Source: Salinibaculum litoreum
GTDB taxonomy: Archaea > Halobacteriota > Halobacteria > Halobacteriales > Haloarculaceae
DNA length: 64,000 bases
Reading direction: 5' to 3'
Assembly (NCBI GenBank): GCA_009789175.1
Contig: CP046866.1
Location: 682,001 to 746,000 of the forward strand
Shown here: positions 5,679 through 63,043 of the stretch, one piece after another
How the letters are laid out: each line of letters starts with the position of its first letter
Position numbering within the stretch: the first letter of the stretch is position 1
Translations under genes and position numbers: made by a program
The notes under the pieces: generated by a model
Database searches by the model: none
What the model was told of the DNA's origin: nothing
The model's input: the letters and a program-made list of their open reading frames with translations, nothing else

Positions 5679-6287
5679 TCACTCGTAGTCGAGGTCGAAT
5701 CCGTACGCTGCGAGCATCCCGAACATCTCGTCAGGGTGTAGGGCAGCAATCCGAACCACAGCGTCGGTCAAAAAGACCTTCTTGATTTCATCGTCGAAGT
5801 TGTCATCGACGACCCGCTCGAGTTCAGTGAATGCCTGTTTCGTCGCTGGCTGGACTCGCATAGGAATCTGCTCCGTCCCATTTGTCGCGCGTGGCTTGCT
5901 GGCCAAGAGGCGGCGAATAGGTGGCCGTCGGAGGTCACCACCGTCGCCGTCGCCGTAGGCCGGAGCAGGAGCGGCCGCTTCGTAATCTTCGGCGTGGGCA
6001 GCGAGTTCCTCGTCCCCGAGGAAATCTGCCCAGTCGATACCACCCGATGGTGCAGAGTACGACCCAGGCGAGCCGGTCTCCGACGGCGTCTCTGCGGTCG
6101 GAGCGTCAGGCTCAGTCGTCGCTTCAGCGCTCGTCTCCCCAGTCGCCGGCTGTGGTTCATTGTCGGTGGGGGGTGTCCCAGCATCGTCAGACTCGTCTGC
6201 ATCGCCGTGGTTCGTGCGGGTGAGGCCCTCATCTCCCCAGCCTTCGTCGGTCGCTCCTTTCCCCGGTCCATCGTCGTCGCTACTCAT
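5679..6287 (-). CDS. partner of ParA, putative plasmid partition/centromere-binding protein
   Basis: This is the second gene of the partition operon, overlapping the end of parA by 8 bases if it starts at the MSSDDD methionine. Residues 1-130 are low-complexity and acidic (Asp, Glu, Thr, Pro, Ala). The last 70 residues form a compact helical domain beginning IPMRVQPATKQAF. The layout, a disordered arm plus a small DNA-binding or dimerisation domain next to parA, is that of a centromere-binding adaptor. That role is inferred from position; no ParB nuclease motif is present. It would link the plasmid centromere to the ParA ATPase. Confidence 0.6.
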   Translation of the reverse strand: MSSDDDGPGKGATDEGWGDEGLTRTNHGDADESDDAGTPPTDNEPQPATGETSAEATTEPDAPTAETPSETGSPGSYSAPSGGIDWADFLGDEELAAHAEDYEAAAPAPAYGDGDGGDLRRPPIRRLLASKPRATNGTEQIPMRVQPATKQAFTELERVVDDNFDDEIKKVFLTDAVVRIAALHPDEMFGMLAAYGFDLDYE

Positions 6288-45102: not shown

Positions 45103-45207
45103 ATGAGCCTCGAAGAGACGGTTGACTACCTCGCCGAGGAACTTGACCTCGAGCGAAGTGAACACGTTCGCGAGGTCGGACAGTCGGTCGCCGAGCTTCG
45201 CGACTGA
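45103..45207 (+). CDS. 34-aa ORF convergent with Doc-like gene, copy 1
   Basis: A 34-codon frame with its own TATA element (TTTATACC at 45073-45080), 25-30 bases before the ATG as for leaderless transcripts. It ends one base before the stop of the Doc-like gene on the opposite strand. The product begins MSL-Glu-Glu, has R18-S19-E20, G26, V29-A30 and ends in Asp. It aligns without gaps to the 34-codon frame beside the second Doc-like gene (13 identical positions by eye). Candidate antitoxin or regulator peptide. Confidence 0.6.
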   Translation: MSLEETVDYLAEELDLERSEHVREVGQSVAELRD

Positions 45208-46095
45208 TCAGAACATTTCTCTGAAGTCCCGTTCGACCAGTCCGTCCTCCAGATACGTGATGAACTCTTGTTTCGTTGGTCCTTGACGGTCAAGCAGATC
45301 GTCCCGCTCTGCTCGTTCGAGAACTGACTGTGCAAAGTCCGTACAGTGGGATTCGTGCTGTTCAGCGTACTCTGAGAGGGCTTCTCGCCAGTGCATATCC
45401 AGCTCGAACTGGGCTAATCGGATTTGGATTCCGTCTTTCCGTTCGACGAGATCAACGTCCAGCTCTTCGAGTTGCTTGAAACGGAGGTTGTTCCGGCGGA
45501 CCGTGATGAGCCGCTTAGAATCAACAATATAGGGATCAACCCACTCTCGCCAGGTATCGTCGTCGACGTGCGTTCGTGGCATCTCAAAATCCGGCTCCAC
45601 ACTCTCAATACAGAACTGGAGCATCGCGATGCCAGTTCGATGATTCGCATTTGGGAGGGAATGTCGGAGGATCAAATTCGACATCACCTCTCCAGCGACG
45701 GTCGACAGTGGTGCTCCCCAGGAGACGTGATCGAGTGCCTGCTGGATCTTTTGCGGTTCGAACTCCTTGTAGAGCCGGAACTCATCCTCATCTCGAACAT
45801 CGACCGCGGCTTCGAGCAACTCTACTAATCGGAATGCGACAACCTGCCCAGCACGGGGGAGGTCACGAATACGGTCGCTCAGCCATTCCTGATCGAAGTC
45901 GACCTCTTGGGCAGATTCGATCTCTGACTTGCCTTCATAGAGCACATAGACCGGTGTGTCAAAGGGGTACCCGATGAGCTTTGTCGACTCGTCGGATTGC
46001 TCTCGCTGAGACAGGATTTCTGCCACCGATGCCGAGCTAAATTTGAGGGAGAAATTCTCGGCCTGGGGGTGGTGATAGAAGACGAGCCGAGCCAT
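45208..46095 (-). CDS. Fic/Doc-like toxin candidate, copy 1
   Basis: A 295-residue protein. The centre carries H145-S-L-P-N-A-N-H-R-T, close to the Fic/Doc active-site pattern HxFxxxNxRT (Doc proteins have NANKRT). Doc phosphorylates elongation factor Tu, whereas Fic enzymes AMPylate targets; which applies here is unknown. The N-terminus (FYHHPQAENFSLKF) and long C-terminal helical part are shared with the protein at 61777-62652, making a distinct subfamily longer than Doc. A PadR gene precedes it on the same strand and a 34-codon ORF meets it tail to tail. Confidence 0.7.
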   Translation of the reverse strand: MARLVFYHHPQAENFSLKFSSASVAEILSQREQSDESTKLIGYPFDTPVYVLYEGKSEIESAQEVDFDQEWLSDRIRDLPRAGQVVAFRLVELLEAAVDVRDEDEFRLYKEFEPQKIQQALDHVSWGAPLSTVAGEVMSNLILRHSLPNANHRTGIAMLQFCIESVEPDFEMPRTHVDDDTWREWVDPYIVDSKRLITVRRNNLRFKQLEELDVDLVERKDGIQIRLAQFELDMHWREALSEYAEQHESHCTDFAQSVLERAERDDLLDRQGPTKQEFITYLEDGLVERDFREMF

Positions 46096-46148
46096 CTTAC
46101 TGTGGATTCGTGGGAAGTGGGTAAAGCAGTCCCGCTTTTATAATGGTT

Positions 46149-46445
46149 CTACGACGGAGTGGGTGCGTTCACGTCTTCTAAATACTGACTTTCCCACTCA
46201 CGTCGCGCCTCGATTTCCCGTAATCCCCGTTGCGTGACTGTGTACACGTTCGTCCGCTTGTCGAGTTCACCCTTCTCCAGCAGTCTTTTGTTGACTAGAT
46301 CGTCGAGATTCGGATAGAGGCGGCCATGATTGATCTCCTGCTCGTAGTAGTCGTCGAGTTCGTCCTTGATTGCGAGCCCATGTGGTTCCTCGAGCCCGGT
46401 GGTTACGTACAAGATATCCCGCTGGAACCCAGTTAGATCGTGCAT
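46149..46445 (-). CDS. PadR-type winged-helix regulator
   Basis: A 98-residue PadR protein: LTGFQRDILYVTTGLEEPHGLAIKDEL, then the conserved GRLYPNLDDLVNKRLL recognition region and a short wing (TNVYTVTQRG). It lies 53 bases upstream of the Doc-like gene on the same strand and is therefore a candidate transcriptional repressor or partner of it. Confidence 0.88.
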   Translation of the reverse strand: MHDLTGFQRDILYVTTGLEEPHGLAIKDELDDYYEQEINHGRLYPNLDDLVNKRLLEKGELDKRTNVYTVTQRGLREIEARREWESQYLEDVNAPTPS

Positions 46446-57844: not shown

Positions 57845-58069
57845 GACGACGAGCGCGAGCGCGCGAAACGCGAGGTCGAAGCCGAAGCCGTTGCGTACAT
57901 CGTCGGGCGGTATTCCGACCTAGATATGATCGGATCAGAGTTCTATCTTCCCGCGTGGCAGGACGACCATGCGGAGAGCATTCAGGAGCGGCTCGGCCGG
58001 ATCAGTTCGGCCACGCAGGAGGTCATCGGGACAGTCGCCAAGGCTGAACACGCCTTCCTTAGCTGTTAA
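57845..58069 (+). pseudogene. C-terminal remnant of an ArdC/ImmA-like antirestriction or metallopeptidase gene
   Basis: An open frame without a start codon, preceded by a stop, reads EVEAEAVAYIVGRYSDLD and SEFYLPAWQDDHAESIQERLGRIS, the C-terminal pattern of plasmid ArdC/M78-type proteins. It ends at 58067-58069, inside the first inverted-repeat site. Only the last 75 codons remain. Confidence 0.65.
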
Positions 58070-58106
58070 CCAACGCAGAGGGTACTTTGTTCACTCAGTT
58101 GGTTAA
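58066..58106. repeat. TTAACCAAC/GTTGGTTAA site 1
   Basis: Nine-base arms separated by 23 bases. It begins at the stop codon of the ArdC-like remnant. The left flank (CCTTCCTTAGCT) resembles the inverted right flank of site 3 (AGCTAAGAAGG), hinting that sites 1 and 3 bound a mobile cassette. Confidence 0.7.
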
Positions 58107-58171: not shown

Positions 58172-58867
58172 TTATAGTTCAGAATCGATTCGGCGCTGCT
58201 GGTCACGAAGGAACTCAACGACGGCATCGATATCCTGTTCGGGAACCGTTTGCTGTTCGAAGACTCCTTTGAATGCGTCCGCGAAATCCTCCGATGTGAG
58301 TCGGTCGAGGACAGTCTCGATGCGACCAGCGAGCTTCTCAGACTCCCCGCGATGTAGATGAGTCGCGATCCGGTCAAAATCCGCGTCAGCAGCCAGCACC
58401 ACCAGATCCCGGGAATCTGCCTTGCGGCCACTGTGAAGTTTCACGGCAAACAGCAACTCCCGTTCCGGAATCCTGGCTGTTACCGGGCGCCCGGTTCGCA
58501 GTTCCTGGGTGACAGAGTGCTGGGCCAGATAGCGATACGACCATTCAGCTTCCGTCTGGCGACAGCCCAACGCGTCGACCATCGCGTCGAACCGAACCGG
58601 ATTCCCGATGTCTTTCGTAAACCGGATAGTACGGCCCTCGTAGAGTTCGTTTCGCTCGACATCAGCCGTTTTCTCGTAGCCGCGGTCGGTGAGAAGGTCG
58701 GTGTAGTCGTCGACCGATTGCGCCGGAATGACGACATCGACATCCGTGGTGAAGCGCTGATTGAACGCCGCAATCGCCCACCCACCGACGAGGACGTACG
58801 GCAGGCCAGCGTCAATGACGGCCTCCAGAGTGTCCAGCAATTCGTCTTCGCGTTCACCGAGACTCAT
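58172..58867 (-). CDS. nucleotidyltransferase (AbiEii-like toxin candidate)
   Basis: A 231-residue protein. Its VGGWAIAAFNQRFTTDVDVVI segment (about residues 27-47) matches the GG(S/W)-x9-13-D-x-D active site of DNA polymerase beta-like nucleotidyltransferases, as in AbiEii toxins. The central AVKLHSGRKADSRDLVVLA is the usual Lys/Asp-rich motif of the group. It overlaps the upstream winged-helix gene as ATGA, giving a typical two-gene toxin-antitoxin layout in which the product would inactivate tRNA or another RNA. Confidence 0.78.
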   Translation of the reverse strand: MSLGEREDELLDTLEAVIDAGLPYVLVGGWAIAAFNQRFTTDVDVVIPAQSVDDYTDLLTDRGYEKTADVERNELYEGRTIRFTKDIGNPVRFDAMVDALGCRQTEAEWSYRYLAQHSVTQELRTGRPVTARIPERELLFAVKLHSGRKADSRDLVVLAADADFDRIATHLHRGESEKLAGRIETVLDRLTSEDFADAFKGVFEQQTVPEQDIDAVVEFLRDQQRRIDSEL

Positions 58868-59538
58868 GCATTGAGACGCGGATCCTTGTGGGACGCGTCG
58901 ATATCGCGGTCGTACTCATCGGCGATCATCTCCAACGCCGGCTCGTAGTTCACCCGGTACTCCAACATGTGCTCGATTGCCTCATCCAACGGAATGACGG
59001 GATTGCCGTCGACCCACTCGCGAGTGATCTCCCCACTCGCCGGGAACAACACGTACGAGACTGTGGCGTCGTAGTCGCTCGCATCCGGCCGCTCTTCGAT
59101 CCGGCTCGGAATCCCGAATTCATCGAAGAACGCCGTCCACTGCTCGACATCTTGGTCGGCGACCTGGATGAAGATCGGATAGTCGTCGTGGCCACGGGCG
59201 ATCTGATAGCCGCCGTGGGTCCAGACGTAGACGCCGTCGATTTTCGTGTACGCAAAGGGCATCCCGGCGAAGTGCGGAATGACGTAGCCGTCGTCGATCG
59301 AGGGGGGAACAGCGCGAGAAATGGCCGCGACGAGATCGTAGTAGCGATCCCTGACAGCGTAATTCTCGATGTAGACGCCGTCCTCACGTCGGATGAAGCC
59401 TGCGTCCTCCAACCGCTCGATCCAGTCGTAGACCCACGAGTAGGAGCCGTCGATCTTCTGGGCGATCCGACGAATCGAGTCGCCCGGCCGGGCCGCGACC
59501 ATGATCTTCGCCGCGGTCTCGTCGACGTACTCCATCAT
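58864..59538 (-). CDS. winged-helix protein, antitoxin candidate for the nucleotidyltransferase
   Basis: A 224-residue protein. Residues 5-60 form a winged helix (AAKIMVAARPGDSIRRIAQKI, then YSWVYDWIERLEDAGFI). The rest is alpha/beta, similar in plan to the C-terminal domains of AbiEi-type antitoxins. It is followed by and overlaps the nucleotidyltransferase gene, so it probably represses the operon and neutralises the enzyme. The promoter should lie right of 59538, near the second inverted-repeat site. Confidence 0.72.
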   Translation of the reverse strand: MMEYVDETAAKIMVAARPGDSIRRIAQKIDGSYSWVYDWIERLEDAGFIRREDGVYIENYAVRDRYYDLVAAISRAVPPSIDDGYVIPHFAGMPFAYTKIDGVYVWTHGGYQIARGHDDYPIFIQVADQDVEQWTAFFDEFGIPSRIEERPDASDYDATVSYVLFPASGEITREWVDGNPVIPLDEAIEHMLEYRVNYEPALEMIADEYDRDIDASHKDPRLNA

Positions 59539-59670: not shown

Positions 59671-59712
59671 TTAACCAACAGAGGATACGACTGATCGCTA
59701 TTCGTTGGTTAA
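59671..59712. repeat. TTAACCAAC/GTTGGTTAA site 2
   Basis: Nine-base arms separated by 24 bases. The right arm is also the outer end of the IS1595-like element; the left arm lies in the flank, 133-174 bases upstream of the winged-helix gene. Confidence 0.75.
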
Positions 59713-60781
59713 GTCTATCCGGGCTTATGTAGAGCTGTGGAATCCCCCCATAACGAGGCAGTCAACGAGGATTTCGAGGGATGCGCCGACAAGGTTCAAC
59801 GAGCAAACGACCCCGAAGGTGTGAGCGGCCTGCTCCAAGCCGTGCTTGGACAGGCCGCGAAATTTCCGTAGCCACGGCTTGACGAGTGAATAGAGGCACT
59901 CAGCCTGGTTGATATGGACACCCTCGGGCGAGACATACGTCTCCTTGTGAAAGACGGTTTTGTGGTCATGCTCCATTTGGCGATAGGCTTGGAGCCCGTC
60001 GGTCCAGACCTCTCCCAGCGGCTGGGAGAGATCTTCAGTCTTCTCCAGCACCGGCTCTAAGTCCGTCTCGTATTGGATACCAAGCTGTCCACGGATTACT
60101 CGGAGCACGTCGCGGCAGGCCGCGACGAGCGTTAGTTGATCACCGTGCCGTCGTCGCCAGCGTGAGCGACCCCTTCGGGATGACCCGCCGCGGTGACGGC
60201 TGTCCCGCGGCGGGTTGTGACCTTTGTAGCCGGAACATACCTTGCCTGATTCGTCGATCTGTGTCGGTCCAGAAATTGTGTCTTGGAATTGATCCCAGAC
60301 GACCGGGAAGCCACGGTGTACGGCGGCTTCCACCTCTCGAATGGCATAGAAAATCGTCTTGTACGCGCGGTCAAACACCGTTACAATCTGTGAGATGGTC
60401 AACAACGTGTCCGCATAGAGAATGAACGCGAGAAACACCTCTCCGCAGGAGAGGTGCTTCTCGTGAAACGGTGTTCCGTAGGTGTATACCGGCTTAAAAT
60501 CGTAGTTACGGCAGCAGACCCGGTCGGACGATTCCCACGTTCGGATGCTTGGGTTGCCGCAGCGTGGACACGTCGTGTGCCCCCAGAAGTGCTTGAGTCG
60601 CCGCCCGATGGCCTCATCGAGCGGCTCCGTGTTGAGGTCGAACACACCGATGTCGACGAGCTGGCGAAGCATCCGACCGAACGCCGGCTGCGACAGAGAC
60701 AGATCTCCTCATTCGCGCCGCTACACCGTAGAAATACGGCCGTTCCGCGTTTCTACATAAGAGCGACAGTTCTTAACCAAC
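59704..60781 (-). mobile_element. IS1595-like insertion sequence (1078 bp)
   Basis: Both ends read GTTGGTTAAG-N10-CTTATGTAGA inward (59704-59733 and the complement of 60752-60781), with the same ten-base gap, defining the terminal repeats. The eight bases next to each end differ (CGCTATTC and ACATATCC), so no target duplication is visible. A copy of the outer nine bases, inverted, lies 23-24 bases beyond each end. Confidence 0.82.
59725..60672 (-). CDS. IS1595-like transposase
   Basis: A 315-residue protein. An N-terminal zinc ribbon (CPRCG, then CCRNYDFKPVYTYGTPF) is followed by the DDE-type core: D in QIDESGKVCSGYKG, D in VWTDGLQAYR, and the HINQAECLYSLVKPWLRKFRG segment that carries the third residue in this family. 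A basic loop (RHRGGSSRRGRSRWRRRHG) interrupts the core. Length and order fit the IS1595/ISH4 group. The stop codon lies within the terminal repeat. Confidence 0.85.
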   Translation of the reverse strand: MLRQLVDIGVFDLNTEPLDEAIGRRLKHFWGHTTCPRCGNPSIRTWESSDRVCCRNYDFKPVYTYGTPFHEKHLSCGEVFLAFILYADTLLTISQIVTVFDRAYKTIFYAIREVEAAVHRGFPVVWDQFQDTISGPTQIDESGKVCSGYKGHNPPRDSRHRGGSSRRGRSRWRRRHGDQLTLVAACRDVLRVIRGQLGIQYETDLEPVLEKTEDLSQPLGEVWTDGLQAYRQMEHDHKTVFHKETYVSPEGVHINQAECLYSLVKPWLRKFRGLSKHGLEQAAHTFGVVCSLNLVGASLEILVDCLVMGGFHSST

Positions 60782-60813
60782 ACATATCCATTGGATGATT
60801 TTGTGTTGGTTAA
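60773..60813. repeat. TTAACCAAC/GTTGGTTAA site 3
   Basis: Nine-base arms separated by 23 bases. The left arm is the outer end of the IS1595-like element and the right arm is in the flank, about 70 bases before the AbiEi-like gene, where an operator would be expected. Confidence 0.75.
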
Positions 60814-60881
60814 GGAAGCTAAGAAGGATGAGGCAAGGCTAAAGCAGGTCTGAGACTATATTCTATGTAAGAAACGCAGGT

Positions 60882-61712
60882 ATGAGTATCATAGAACAAT
60901 CGCAAAATATACGCCAGGGTCTTTCGACTCGAGAAAGTCGACTCCTTACACAACTCGCTGGCGCGGGGCACCAGATCATCTCCGTTGACGATATCGAGAC
61001 GACGCTGGAGGTTCCCCCAAACACCGCCCGCGAGATCGCCTCCCGGCTCACCGGGAAGGGCTGGCTCGACCGACTGTTTCCCGGCCGATACCTCATCATC
61101 CCACTCGCAGCCGGCGAAGAGGACCGGTACACAACCCACGAGTACCTCATCGCTGCCCACGTCGCCGAGCCGATGTACATCGGCTACTACAGCGCCCTCA
61201 GCCACCACGGGCTGACCGAACAAGTACCTCGGACGGTGTACGTCGTCACGCCGACCCGAGCGCAAAGCCGAGAGATCCATGGCGTCTCGTACCGCGTCAC
61301 GACAGTCACCAAGCAGAAATTCTTCGGCTTTGAGCCGACATCGGTCGAGGGCACGACCGTGCAGGTCAGCGACCTAGAGAAGACGTTGGTCGACTGTGCG
61401 GACCACCCCGAGTTCTGTGGTGGCCTTCGGGAACTCGCAACCGCGATGCGCACCGCCGACGAACGGGGTTGCGACTGGGACACGGTCGGCAAGTACCTCG
61501 AGCGCCTCGACAACGGCGCTGCGACCAAGCGGATCGTCTACCTCGCCGACCAGCTCGGCATCGACCTCCCGGCGCGTGAGACGCTCCTCAAGTCATTCAC
61601 GAGCGGGTATCCGCTTCTCGACCCAACGCGAAGCGAACAGGGACGCTACGACAGTGAGTATCATCTCCGAATCAACGTCGACTGGGAGAGACTCGATTCG
61701 ATGGAATCCTGA
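60882..61712 (+). CDS. AbiEi-like winged-helix antitoxin protein
   Basis: A 276-residue protein. Residues 15-75 form a winged helix (ESRLLTQLAGAGHQIISVDDI, then NTAREIASRLTGKGWLDRLFPGRY). The middle and end match AbiEi: YTTHEYLIAAHVAEPMYIGYYSALSHHGL, then VQVSDLEKTLVDCADHPEFCGGL. AbiEi proteins repress their operon and neutralise an AbiEii nucleotidyltransferase. Here no AbiEii follows; instead a Doc-like gene starts 64 bases downstream. Its AbiEii partner may be lost, or it may act on the Doc-like protein. Confidence 0.82.
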   Translation: MSIIEQSQNIRQGLSTRESRLLTQLAGAGHQIISVDDIETTLEVPPNTAREIASRLTGKGWLDRLFPGRYLIIPLAAGEEDRYTTHEYLIAAHVAEPMYIGYYSALSHHGLTEQVPRTVYVVTPTRAQSREIHGVSYRVTTVTKQKFFGFEPTSVEGTTVQVSDLEKTLVDCADHPEFCGGLRELATAMRTADERGCDWDTVGKYLERLDNGAATKRIVYLADQLGIDLPARETLLKSFTSGYPLLDPTRSEQGRYDSEYHLRINVDWERLDSMES

Positions 61713-61776
61713 TGCCAGGTCGGTCCGAAAGGTAGCGTGAATTAAGGTGCTCCTCCAAGTACAGCGAATCAGGTAG

Positions 61777-62652
61777 ATGGGTCACGTCTATTATCACCAT
61801 CCGGGCGACAATCAGTTCTCTCTTGATTTTGTCCACGAGGCTCCATCAGAGATCGTTGCCAGGATTGTCGACTACGACGATGACGTGGCGGTGAAGGTTC
61901 GCAAGTACGATCTTGACAGCGAGTTTTTCGGTATCTATACCTCCCGCGTCGGTGGTGGGGACGTCGGCGATCTCGAATTCGATCTTGGCGAGGCACTCTC
62001 TGAGATGGGTGCTGATAACGGTACCATCGTTGCCCGGCTCCTCGAGATCTATCAAGCGCTCATAGCCCAGAACGAGGAAGAAGAAGGAGTTCCTGTTGAA
62101 GCGTACAAGAACATCGACATCGATGCACTCCCAGACGCGCTCAACCGGGTGTCGTGGGAGGGCAACGCGACTGATGTTGCAGGCCGTCTCGCCTCAAATC
62201 TCATTCTCATACACGCGCTTCCGAATGCGAACCATCGGACTGCTGTTGCCCTGGTTCAGTTCTACCTCCGTCGGATTGCTCCCGATTTCTCGATGCCAGA
62301 GACCTCCGTGGAAATCGACTCAGAGATATACGACTGGCGGGAGTGGGTAAACACGTATATTAACGAGTCAAAGCGTCTCTTGACGGTTCGTCGGAAGAAT
62401 GTGCTCCTCAAACATCTCTCTGACTTCGGAGCGACAACGCTTGAGCGGAAACACGAGGTCCAGATCGACTTGACGGCATACGAGCTGGATATGTATCCTG
62501 CAGAAGCGAAAACAGTCTACGCAACAGCGCACGAGGAACTCTGGATCGAATTCGTCGAAGAGGCAGTTGAGCGCACCGACAACCCCGAGCTGATGGAGGC
62601 CCCTGGACTATCGAAGACGGAGTTCGCAGAGAAAATTCGGACCCTCGAGTAA
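61777..62652 (+). CDS. Fic/Doc-like toxin candidate, copy 2
   Basis: A 291-residue protein homologous throughout to the product of 45208-46095. The active-site-like block is H146-A-L-P-N-A-N-H-R-T, in the same position as in copy 1. Both begin with a YHHP segment and share ESKRLLTVRRKN and SDFGATTLERK-like regions after the motif. The AbiEi-like gene lies upstream on the same strand, and a 34-codon ORF meets it tail to tail ten bases after its stop. Likely a growth-inhibiting enzyme acting on the translation machinery by analogy with Doc; this is inferred. Confidence 0.7.
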   Translation: MGHVYYHHPGDNQFSLDFVHEAPSEIVARIVDYDDDVAVKVRKYDLDSEFFGIYTSRVGGGDVGDLEFDLGEALSEMGADNGTIVARLLEIYQALIAQNEEEEGVPVEAYKNIDIDALPDALNRVSWEGNATDVAGRLASNLILIHALPNANHRTAVALVQFYLRRIAPDFSMPETSVEIDSEIYDWREWVNTYINESKRLLTVRRKNVLLKHLSDFGATTLERKHEVQIDLTAYELDMYPAEAKTVYATAHEELWIEFVEEAVERTDNPELMEAPGLSKTEFAEKIRTLE

Positions 62653-62662
62653 GCGGCGTGCG

Positions 62663-62767
62663 CTAGTCTTGGAGCGTCGCGACCGTGCGGCCGGTTTCTT
62701 CGGCCTCTTCGCTCCGCGACATCCCGTATGTTGCGAGAGCCTCCTCAACCGCGTCGTCCAGACTCAT
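62663..62767 (-). CDS. 34-aa ORF convergent with Doc-like gene, copy 2
   Basis: Exactly 34 codons, as in copy 1. The product starts MSL-Asp-Asp, shares V7, R18-S19-E20, E24, G26, V29-A30, L32 and final D34 with copy 1, and is acidic and helical. On its strand a TTTATCC element lies 35-40 bases before the ATG. Conservation of length, sequence and convergent position next to two diverged Doc-like genes argues that it is a real gene. Confidence 0.6.
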   Translation of the reverse strand: MSLDDAVEEALATYGMSRSEEAEETGRTVATLQD

Positions 62768-63043
62768 TGGTCAGGCAGATCTTGGCTCTGCCGACGGATA
62801 AAGTCTCGCACGATTTGGGTTTAATGTTGCATCGGCTAACTCGCCAACCGTGCAGGACCGATCCCGCAAATAGTCGATAACCCGTAGCTCCGTCCCCTCT
62901 CATAGATTCCAATCTCTCCGATGTATTCATAATCATATCGAGTAGAGTGGAATACAGACTCTTGGCGCTCAGATCGAGTGGTCAAATAGTGAGACAGTTG
63001 TGCAACCGTATTTTGGAGAGGCAATTCGATCTGCGAGTCCGAA

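Follow-up and report, generated by a model that had tools for sequence, protein, structure and literature searches.

A conserved convergent pair of a Doc-like gene and a 34-aa gene in Halobacteriales, a candidate toxin-antitoxin module beside an orphan AbiEi

The main finding from the window, the whole 64,000-nucleotide stretch of Salinibaculum litoreum DNA that was analysed, is a convergent module made of a Doc-like gene and a 34-aa gene, which many Halobacteriales carry and which the examined records leave unannotated. Relatives of the Doc-like protein were found in 148 of the 392 sampled Halobacteriales genomes, with carriers that include the laboratory organisms Halobacterium salinarum R1 (plasmid PHS3, gene OE_RS13105) and Haloarcula marismortui (pNG600). 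Annotated plasmid records list this protein as 'hypothetical protein', and the 34-aa gene is missing from the annotation of all five records examined. Judged from sequence, the module is best read as a putative, unrecognised haloarchaeal Fic/Doc-type toxin-antitoxin (TA) system with a tiny convergent candidate antitoxin. We consider it probable that the two genes constitute a TA-like module on their own, confined to Halobacteriales among the sampled genomes, and that the neighbouring AbiEi gene lies outside it. If this is true, a Fic/Doc-type addiction module would be abundant in archaea and would rely on one of the smallest protein antitoxins, and the module could be tested in tractable strains. 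No description of the AbiEi-Doc pairing or of the palindromic site upstream of it was found in the open-access literature.

The window carries two copies of the module (Table 1). Our analysis confirmed the order and coordinates that the first-pass annotation had given for copy 2, namely an AbiEi-like gene, 64 bp, a Doc-like gene and the convergent 34-aa ORF, as well as the PadR-Doc-34aa arrangement of copy 1 (45103-46445). The Doc-like proteins of the two copies are 36-37% identical and their 34-aa genes are homologous.

Table 1. Features of the two module copies and of the palindromic sites (positions in the window unless a contig is given)
Feature	Position	Strand	Remarks
Copy 1, 34-aa gene MSLEETVDYLAEELDLERSEHVREVGQSVAELRD	45103-45207	+	
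Copy 1, Doc-like gene, 295 aa	45208-46095	-	motif HSLPNANHRTG
Copy 1, PadR-family regulator upstream of Doc	46149-46445	-	one Doc clade only
Palindromic site	58066-58106		
Palindromic site	59671-59712		
41-bp palindromic site TTAACCAAC-N23-GTTGGTTAA, upstream of AbiEi	60773-60813	.	belongs to a site family that is dispersed among haloarchaea
AbiEi-like gene, 276 aa, orphan antitoxin	60882-61712	+	PADLOC, Pfam; chimeric: free-standing AbiEi to about 61517, Doc-linked AbiEi remnant from about 61577
Crossover interval of two AbiEi copies	61518-61577	.	about 2.5 kb removed relative to locus L056
64-bp intergenic stretch with Doc promoter region	61713-61776	+	
Copy 2, Doc/Fic-like gene, 291 aa	61777-62652	+	toxin candidate
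Codons of Fic/Doc-like motif HALPNANHRTA	62212-62244	+	residues 146-156
Copy 2, 34-aa gene MSLDDAVEEALATYGMSRSEEAEETGRTVATLQD	62663-62767	-	convergent with Doc, 10 bp from it; antitoxin candidate
TATA-like element, 34-aa gene promoter, CTTTATCC on minus strand	62796-62803	-	
Palindromic sites, rest of genome	C1:752172, 755332, 759404, 765112; nine on C2		

The Doc-like gene and its 34-aa partner

We collected 158 Doc loci, which comprised 128 distinct intact Docs. Under a strict ORF limit, a profile of the 34-aa protein revealed a convergent gene in 131 loci, mostly less than 20 bp from the Doc stop codon. When longer frames were allowed, the gene accompanied 123 of the 128 distinct intact Docs, and at three more loci (L130, L133 and L153) it lay about 1.5 kb off, apparently behind an insertion, which raised the total to 126. 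Docs lacking the gene decreased from 7/128 to 2/128 once these three displaced genes and two full-length but diverged ones were counted as present; the two cases in which no 34-aa gene was found beside the Doc, L137 and L140, are distant members of the sample. The tail-to-tail gap between the two genes was mostly -4 to +18 bp. At 126 of 128 distinct intact loci, the pairing in Halobacteriales is far beyond chance.

The 34-aa frame was the only stop-free frame in 99 of 99 distinct sequences. Its median pN/pS was 0.17, and the value pooled over pairs was 0.37 compared to about 1.5 in the other two sense frames; these codon statistics led us to reject the ORF as a spurious or RNA-only feature. 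Residues M1, L32 and the C-terminal D34 of the protein are invariant, its C-terminus bears the signature R-[ST]-[VN]-A-x-L-[QR]-D, and AlphaFold predicted one helix spanning residues 3-33 (pLDDT 88). The gene also has its own conserved TATA-like promoter element, which points at doc. All in all, the linkage and the protein-level selection in this frame strongly support the proposal of the first-pass annotation that the core consists of the Doc-like gene and its 34-aa partner ORF.

Antitoxin genes can persist where the toxin has been lost, and the reverse is rare. We ran the 34-aa profile across 195 genomes and read the 30 best loci. A full Doc was present in 18 of them and a Doc without a start in one, and in the other 11 the Doc was truncated, frameshifted or gone. 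Thus, 11 of the 30 top 34-aa loci had no intact Doc, against 2 of 128 Docs without a 34-aa gene, in two samples that were drawn differently. The partner is lost less often than the toxin candidate, which is the pattern expected of an antitoxin within a TA pair. Further solitary copies exist beyond those 30 loci, and such genes might have another function. One of them is a third 34-aa gene of the Salinibaculum litoreum genome, located without an adjoining Doc at C1:605164-605265 (L311). We also observed 34-aa genes, intact or decayed, that face AbiEii tail to tail across a 5-bp gap like the one seen with Doc (L309, 34-aa gene at 6108-6228; L320; L319; relics in L245, L246 and L253), as if AbiEi-AbiEii had taken the place of Doc.

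Assignment of the Doc-like protein to the Fic/Doc group came from several weak similarities around the motif. The copy 2 protein alone scored below the cut-offs of Fic (0.037) and DOC_P1 (TIGR01550, 0.0025) in Pfam/NCBIfam. PHROG 577, 'Doc-like toxin', was matched by 22 of 47 family members (best 3.5e-6), the family profile matched a solved death-on-curing protein (PDB 9vzc, E=0.0044), and hhalign of the family against a bacterial Doc profile gave E=3.8e-4 and a probability of 36% over about 56 columns covering the motif. Where HxFx[D/E]xNxR requires Asp or Glu, all 47 aligned haloarchaeal Docs have Asn, in contrast to none of seven bacterial Docs, all of which carry Asp or Glu. An Asn at this metal-binding acid position may mean altered catalysis or none; the solved protein 9vzc also has Asn there, and we did not take the D-to-N change to prove that the protein is inactive. 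The structure model of the Doc-like protein was poor (pLDDT 66) and Foldseek searches with it gave no match, so that the Fic fold assignment rests on sequence. A TATA-like element lies about 35 bp before the Doc start in relatives, indicating that Doc has its own promoter. All named relatives belong to Halobacteriales, for example Halorubrum, Haloferax and Halobacterium. None were found in viral contigs, and a viral origin of the module was rejected on that basis.

These data can be set against the alternative that the 34-aa protein acts on its own, as a small regulator or in anti-addiction, and neighbours Doc by chance, Doc being a non-toxic Fic-like enzyme for housekeeping or defence. Such a protein would fit the solitary intact genes, some of them beside AbiEii with the 5-bp gap (L309, L320), and a non-toxic Doc would fit the Asn at the metal-binding position. 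However, linkage is near-perfect and in one fixed orientation among Docs that have diverged widely (29-97% identity), and a Doc almost never occurs without the 34-aa gene, which makes this alternative unlikely.

AbiEi and other genes upstream of Doc

The AbiEi-like protein matched PADLOC AbiEi with E=6.7e-98 and Pfam AbiEi_1 and AbiEi_4 with 2.8e-12 and 1.1e-6, and it has, as seen with Pfam and PADLOC, both parts typical of the AbiE family, a winged helix at the N-terminus and an antitoxin domain at the C-terminus. It is thus a bona fide member of AbiE, the type IV TA system AbiEi-AbiEii, and its close relatives elsewhere are found in AbiEi-AbiEii operons, mostly preceding AbiEii by 8-35 bp. 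In contrast, AbiEii is absent from the window locus, where the gene downstream of AbiEi is Doc-like and not a DUF1814 nucleotidyltransferase. No match to AbiEii (DUF1814, PF08843) was obtained anywhere in the Salinibaculum litoreum genome, and we rejected the idea of an AbiEii hidden elsewhere in the host. Since the relatives mostly precede AbiEii and this genome has none, loss of AbiEii is the right account of the AbiEi gene, which is an orphan type IV antitoxin.

We tabulated the upstream neighbours of 130 distinct Doc loci from mechanical gene calls, so that the numbers are approximate. The nearest upstream call was on the other strand in 57 of the 130. Tandem neighbours were PadR (12), ADP-ribosylglycohydrolase (4), AbiEi (4), HhH-GPD proteins (3), PglZ, DUF790 and others, and no conserved upstream partner, such as an antitoxin of the Phd type, was found across these loci. 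The first-pass annotation had suggested an exchangeable winged-helix slot before Doc. Carried further, AbiEi in copy 2 and PadR in copy 1 would be interchangeable winged-helix antitoxins or repressors of Doc in a phd-doc-like manner, with AbiEi acting through the TTAACCAAC/GTTGGTTAA site. The spacing is regular in the loci that fit, with 63-64 bp between AbiEi and the downstream Doc in four genomes and 53-68 bp between PadR and Doc in 12 distinct loci, and an antitoxin-type or other small gene lies directly upstream in 6 of 6 bacterial Doc relatives examined. However, these tandem fits come from one Doc clade for PadR and one for intact AbiEi, most upstream genes are unrelated or on the opposite strand, Doc has its own TATA-like element, and the palindromic site is not specific to AbiEi. 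Together with the decay of AbiEi beside intact Docs and the recent deletion at the window junction, both described below, these observations speak against a slot and make such a role for AbiEi and PadR improbable.

AbiEi adjoins Doc in a single Doc clade of 14 genomes, whose Docs are at least 94% identical. The gene is intact in four of them, Salinibaculum litoreum, Halobaculum magnesiiphilum, Halorussus marinus and Halolamina sp. CBA1230 (relatives at L007/L219, L008/L037 and L010/L217). In the other 10 it has decayed to a C-terminal remnant placed exactly at the expected gene end, and Doc is intact (L004/L033, L005/L034, L006, L009, L011, L035, L036, L038/L039, L056 and L229). The objection that AbiEi and Doc might not be neighbours elsewhere is therefore answered by three other genomes with intact genes and ten with remnants. 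Several of the ten have a second, intact AbiEi about 2.5 kb upstream. No intact AbiEi was found in the 4.5-5.9 kb read at L034, L035 and L229, and AbiEi accordingly appears dispensable for Doc. Purifying selection on Doc was similar with and without an intact AbiEi (pN/pS 0.17 and 0.12).

Comparison of the window with these loci pointed to a composite AbiEi gene. Over positions 60858-61517, identity to the free-standing AbiEi of L056 and L036 is 85-100%, and identity to the Doc-linked remnant, where that exists, is 55-68%. After about 61577 the relation is reversed, with 55-67% identity to the free-standing AbiEi and 88-98% to the remnant. This switch is explained by a single crossover between two AbiEi copies. 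The matching points are about 2.47 kb apart in L056, in an interval that spans two wHTH genes with a 271-aa gene between them, followed by the 5' part of the AbiEi remnant. The window AbiEi is thus a chimera, and recombination between the two copies deleted about 2.5 kb and set AbiEi directly before Doc. The suspicion that an AbiEii gene has simply been deleted here is correct for the lost partner of AbiEi, whereas the present AbiEi-Doc junction is a secondary deletion. An adjacency that arose once and has often decayed, together with the deletion at this locus, indicates that AbiEi beside Doc is most probably a passenger and not part of the module. The locus shows how recombination can bring an orphan AbiEi next to an unrelated putative toxin gene, and it cautions against taking such neighbours for partners.

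Two further features of this region were observed. In L231-L243 AbiEi is kept and the following gene switches almost exactly at the AbiEi stop codon, to AbiEii, a wHTH-nucleotidyltransferase, the wHTH/271-aa block or Doc. Furthermore, the AbiEi remnant, at the end where it is truncated, directly adjoins the C-terminal part of a 34-aa gene of the copy-1 type in antisense orientation (DLERSGYVREVGQS; L056 4495-4824, also L004, L006, L009, L033-L036, L038 and L039), which is a relic of an older rearrangement.

A proposed mechanism and its relation to known systems

In the mechanism that we propose, the Doc-like protein of about 290 aa would be the toxin and the helical 34-aa protein its antitoxin, each transcribed from its own TATA-like promoter. 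The Doc-like enzyme would stop growth by attaching a nucleotide or phosphate to an essential target, and the 34-residue helix would bind the enzyme and block its active-site cleft, in the manner of the FicA/VbhA helices or the Phd tail. A cell that lost the module would face an unopposed toxin, which would stabilise the carrier plasmid or island. Toxicity, neutralisation and the Fic fold and chemistry are what we infer for this module, and the block by the helix is proposed by analogy with Phd-Doc and FicT/FicA (PMC5033356).

With Phd-Doc of phage P1 and the death-on-curing family, the haloarchaeal proteins share the motif region H-x-x-x-N-A-N-x-R-T, a weak profile similarity and a frequent location on plasmids. 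They differ in size (about 290 aa compared to 126), in having no Phd or other antitoxin overlapping upstream, and in an antitoxin candidate that is 34 aa long, downstream and convergent. A separate, very small helical partner is also found in class I Fic TA systems (VbhT/VbhA, EcFicT/EcFicA), whose alpha-inh antitoxins are separate, very small proteins (PMC5033356). In contrast to the gene order here, the partner gene in those systems is immediately upstream. In addition, the haloarchaeal motif is not HxFx[D/E]GNxR, and inspection of 26 aligned 34-36-aa sequences detected no [S/T]xxxE[G/N] inhibitory motif. With no such motif in the partner and an Asn in place of the metal-binding acid, the module may use a different chemistry and a different inhibitory contact. 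We tentatively suggest that the module might even represent a new haloarchaeal TA type, combining an Asn-site Fic/Doc-like enzyme, possibly of different transfer chemistry, with a convergent single-helix 34-residue inhibitor that has its own promoter and is kept as a free-standing immunity gene after toxin loss. That the convergent transcript from the 34-aa promoter, and not the peptide, controls doc as a type I-like antisense RNA would suit the strict tail-to-tail layout and the promoter orientation, but it is highly improbable, since protein-level selection in the 34-aa frame is clear and the frame persists intact where doc is gone, neither of which a transcript-only role needs.

The dispersed palindrome

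A search for TTAACCAAC-N21-26-GTTGGTTAA detected 16 copies in the Salinibaculum litoreum genome and none with the reversed control; the sites are 39-45 bp long and have diverse spacers. Copies were present in 246 of 382 Halobacteriales genomes, with up to 33 in one genome, and in no genome of a phylum sample outside this order. Orientation with respect to genes was near random (15 convergent, 49 tandem and 19 divergent), the type of site found at 60773 recurs far from AbiEi genes, unlike the inverted repeats in the AbiEi promoter through which AbiE systems are autoregulated, and the edge of a site is often where homology between genomes ends. The copy number, the distribution and the near-random orientation led us to reject a dedicated AbiEi operator. 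We also set aside the idea that the palindromes are only the ends of an IS1595-type element, as there are hundreds of sites with varied neighbours. More than an AbiEi operator, the palindrome resembles a site at which exchangeable cassettes end or recombine.

Several gene units lie between two such sites. In L236 and L240, AbiEi-AbiEii units are located between sites at -120 and about +1696 (span -120 to about +1737 from the AbiEi start), and sites on both sides were also seen in L239 and in L237, where AbiEi occurs with a wHTH-nucleotidyltransferase. In the window, an operon of a wHTH (224 aa) and a nucleotidyltransferase-like gene (231 aa) at 58172-59538 is enclosed by two palindromic sites; its layout is AbiE-like, its product is not PF08843, and homologues occur near other Doc loci. 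Next to it, at 59713-60772, an IS1595-family transposase gene extends all the way from one site to the next.
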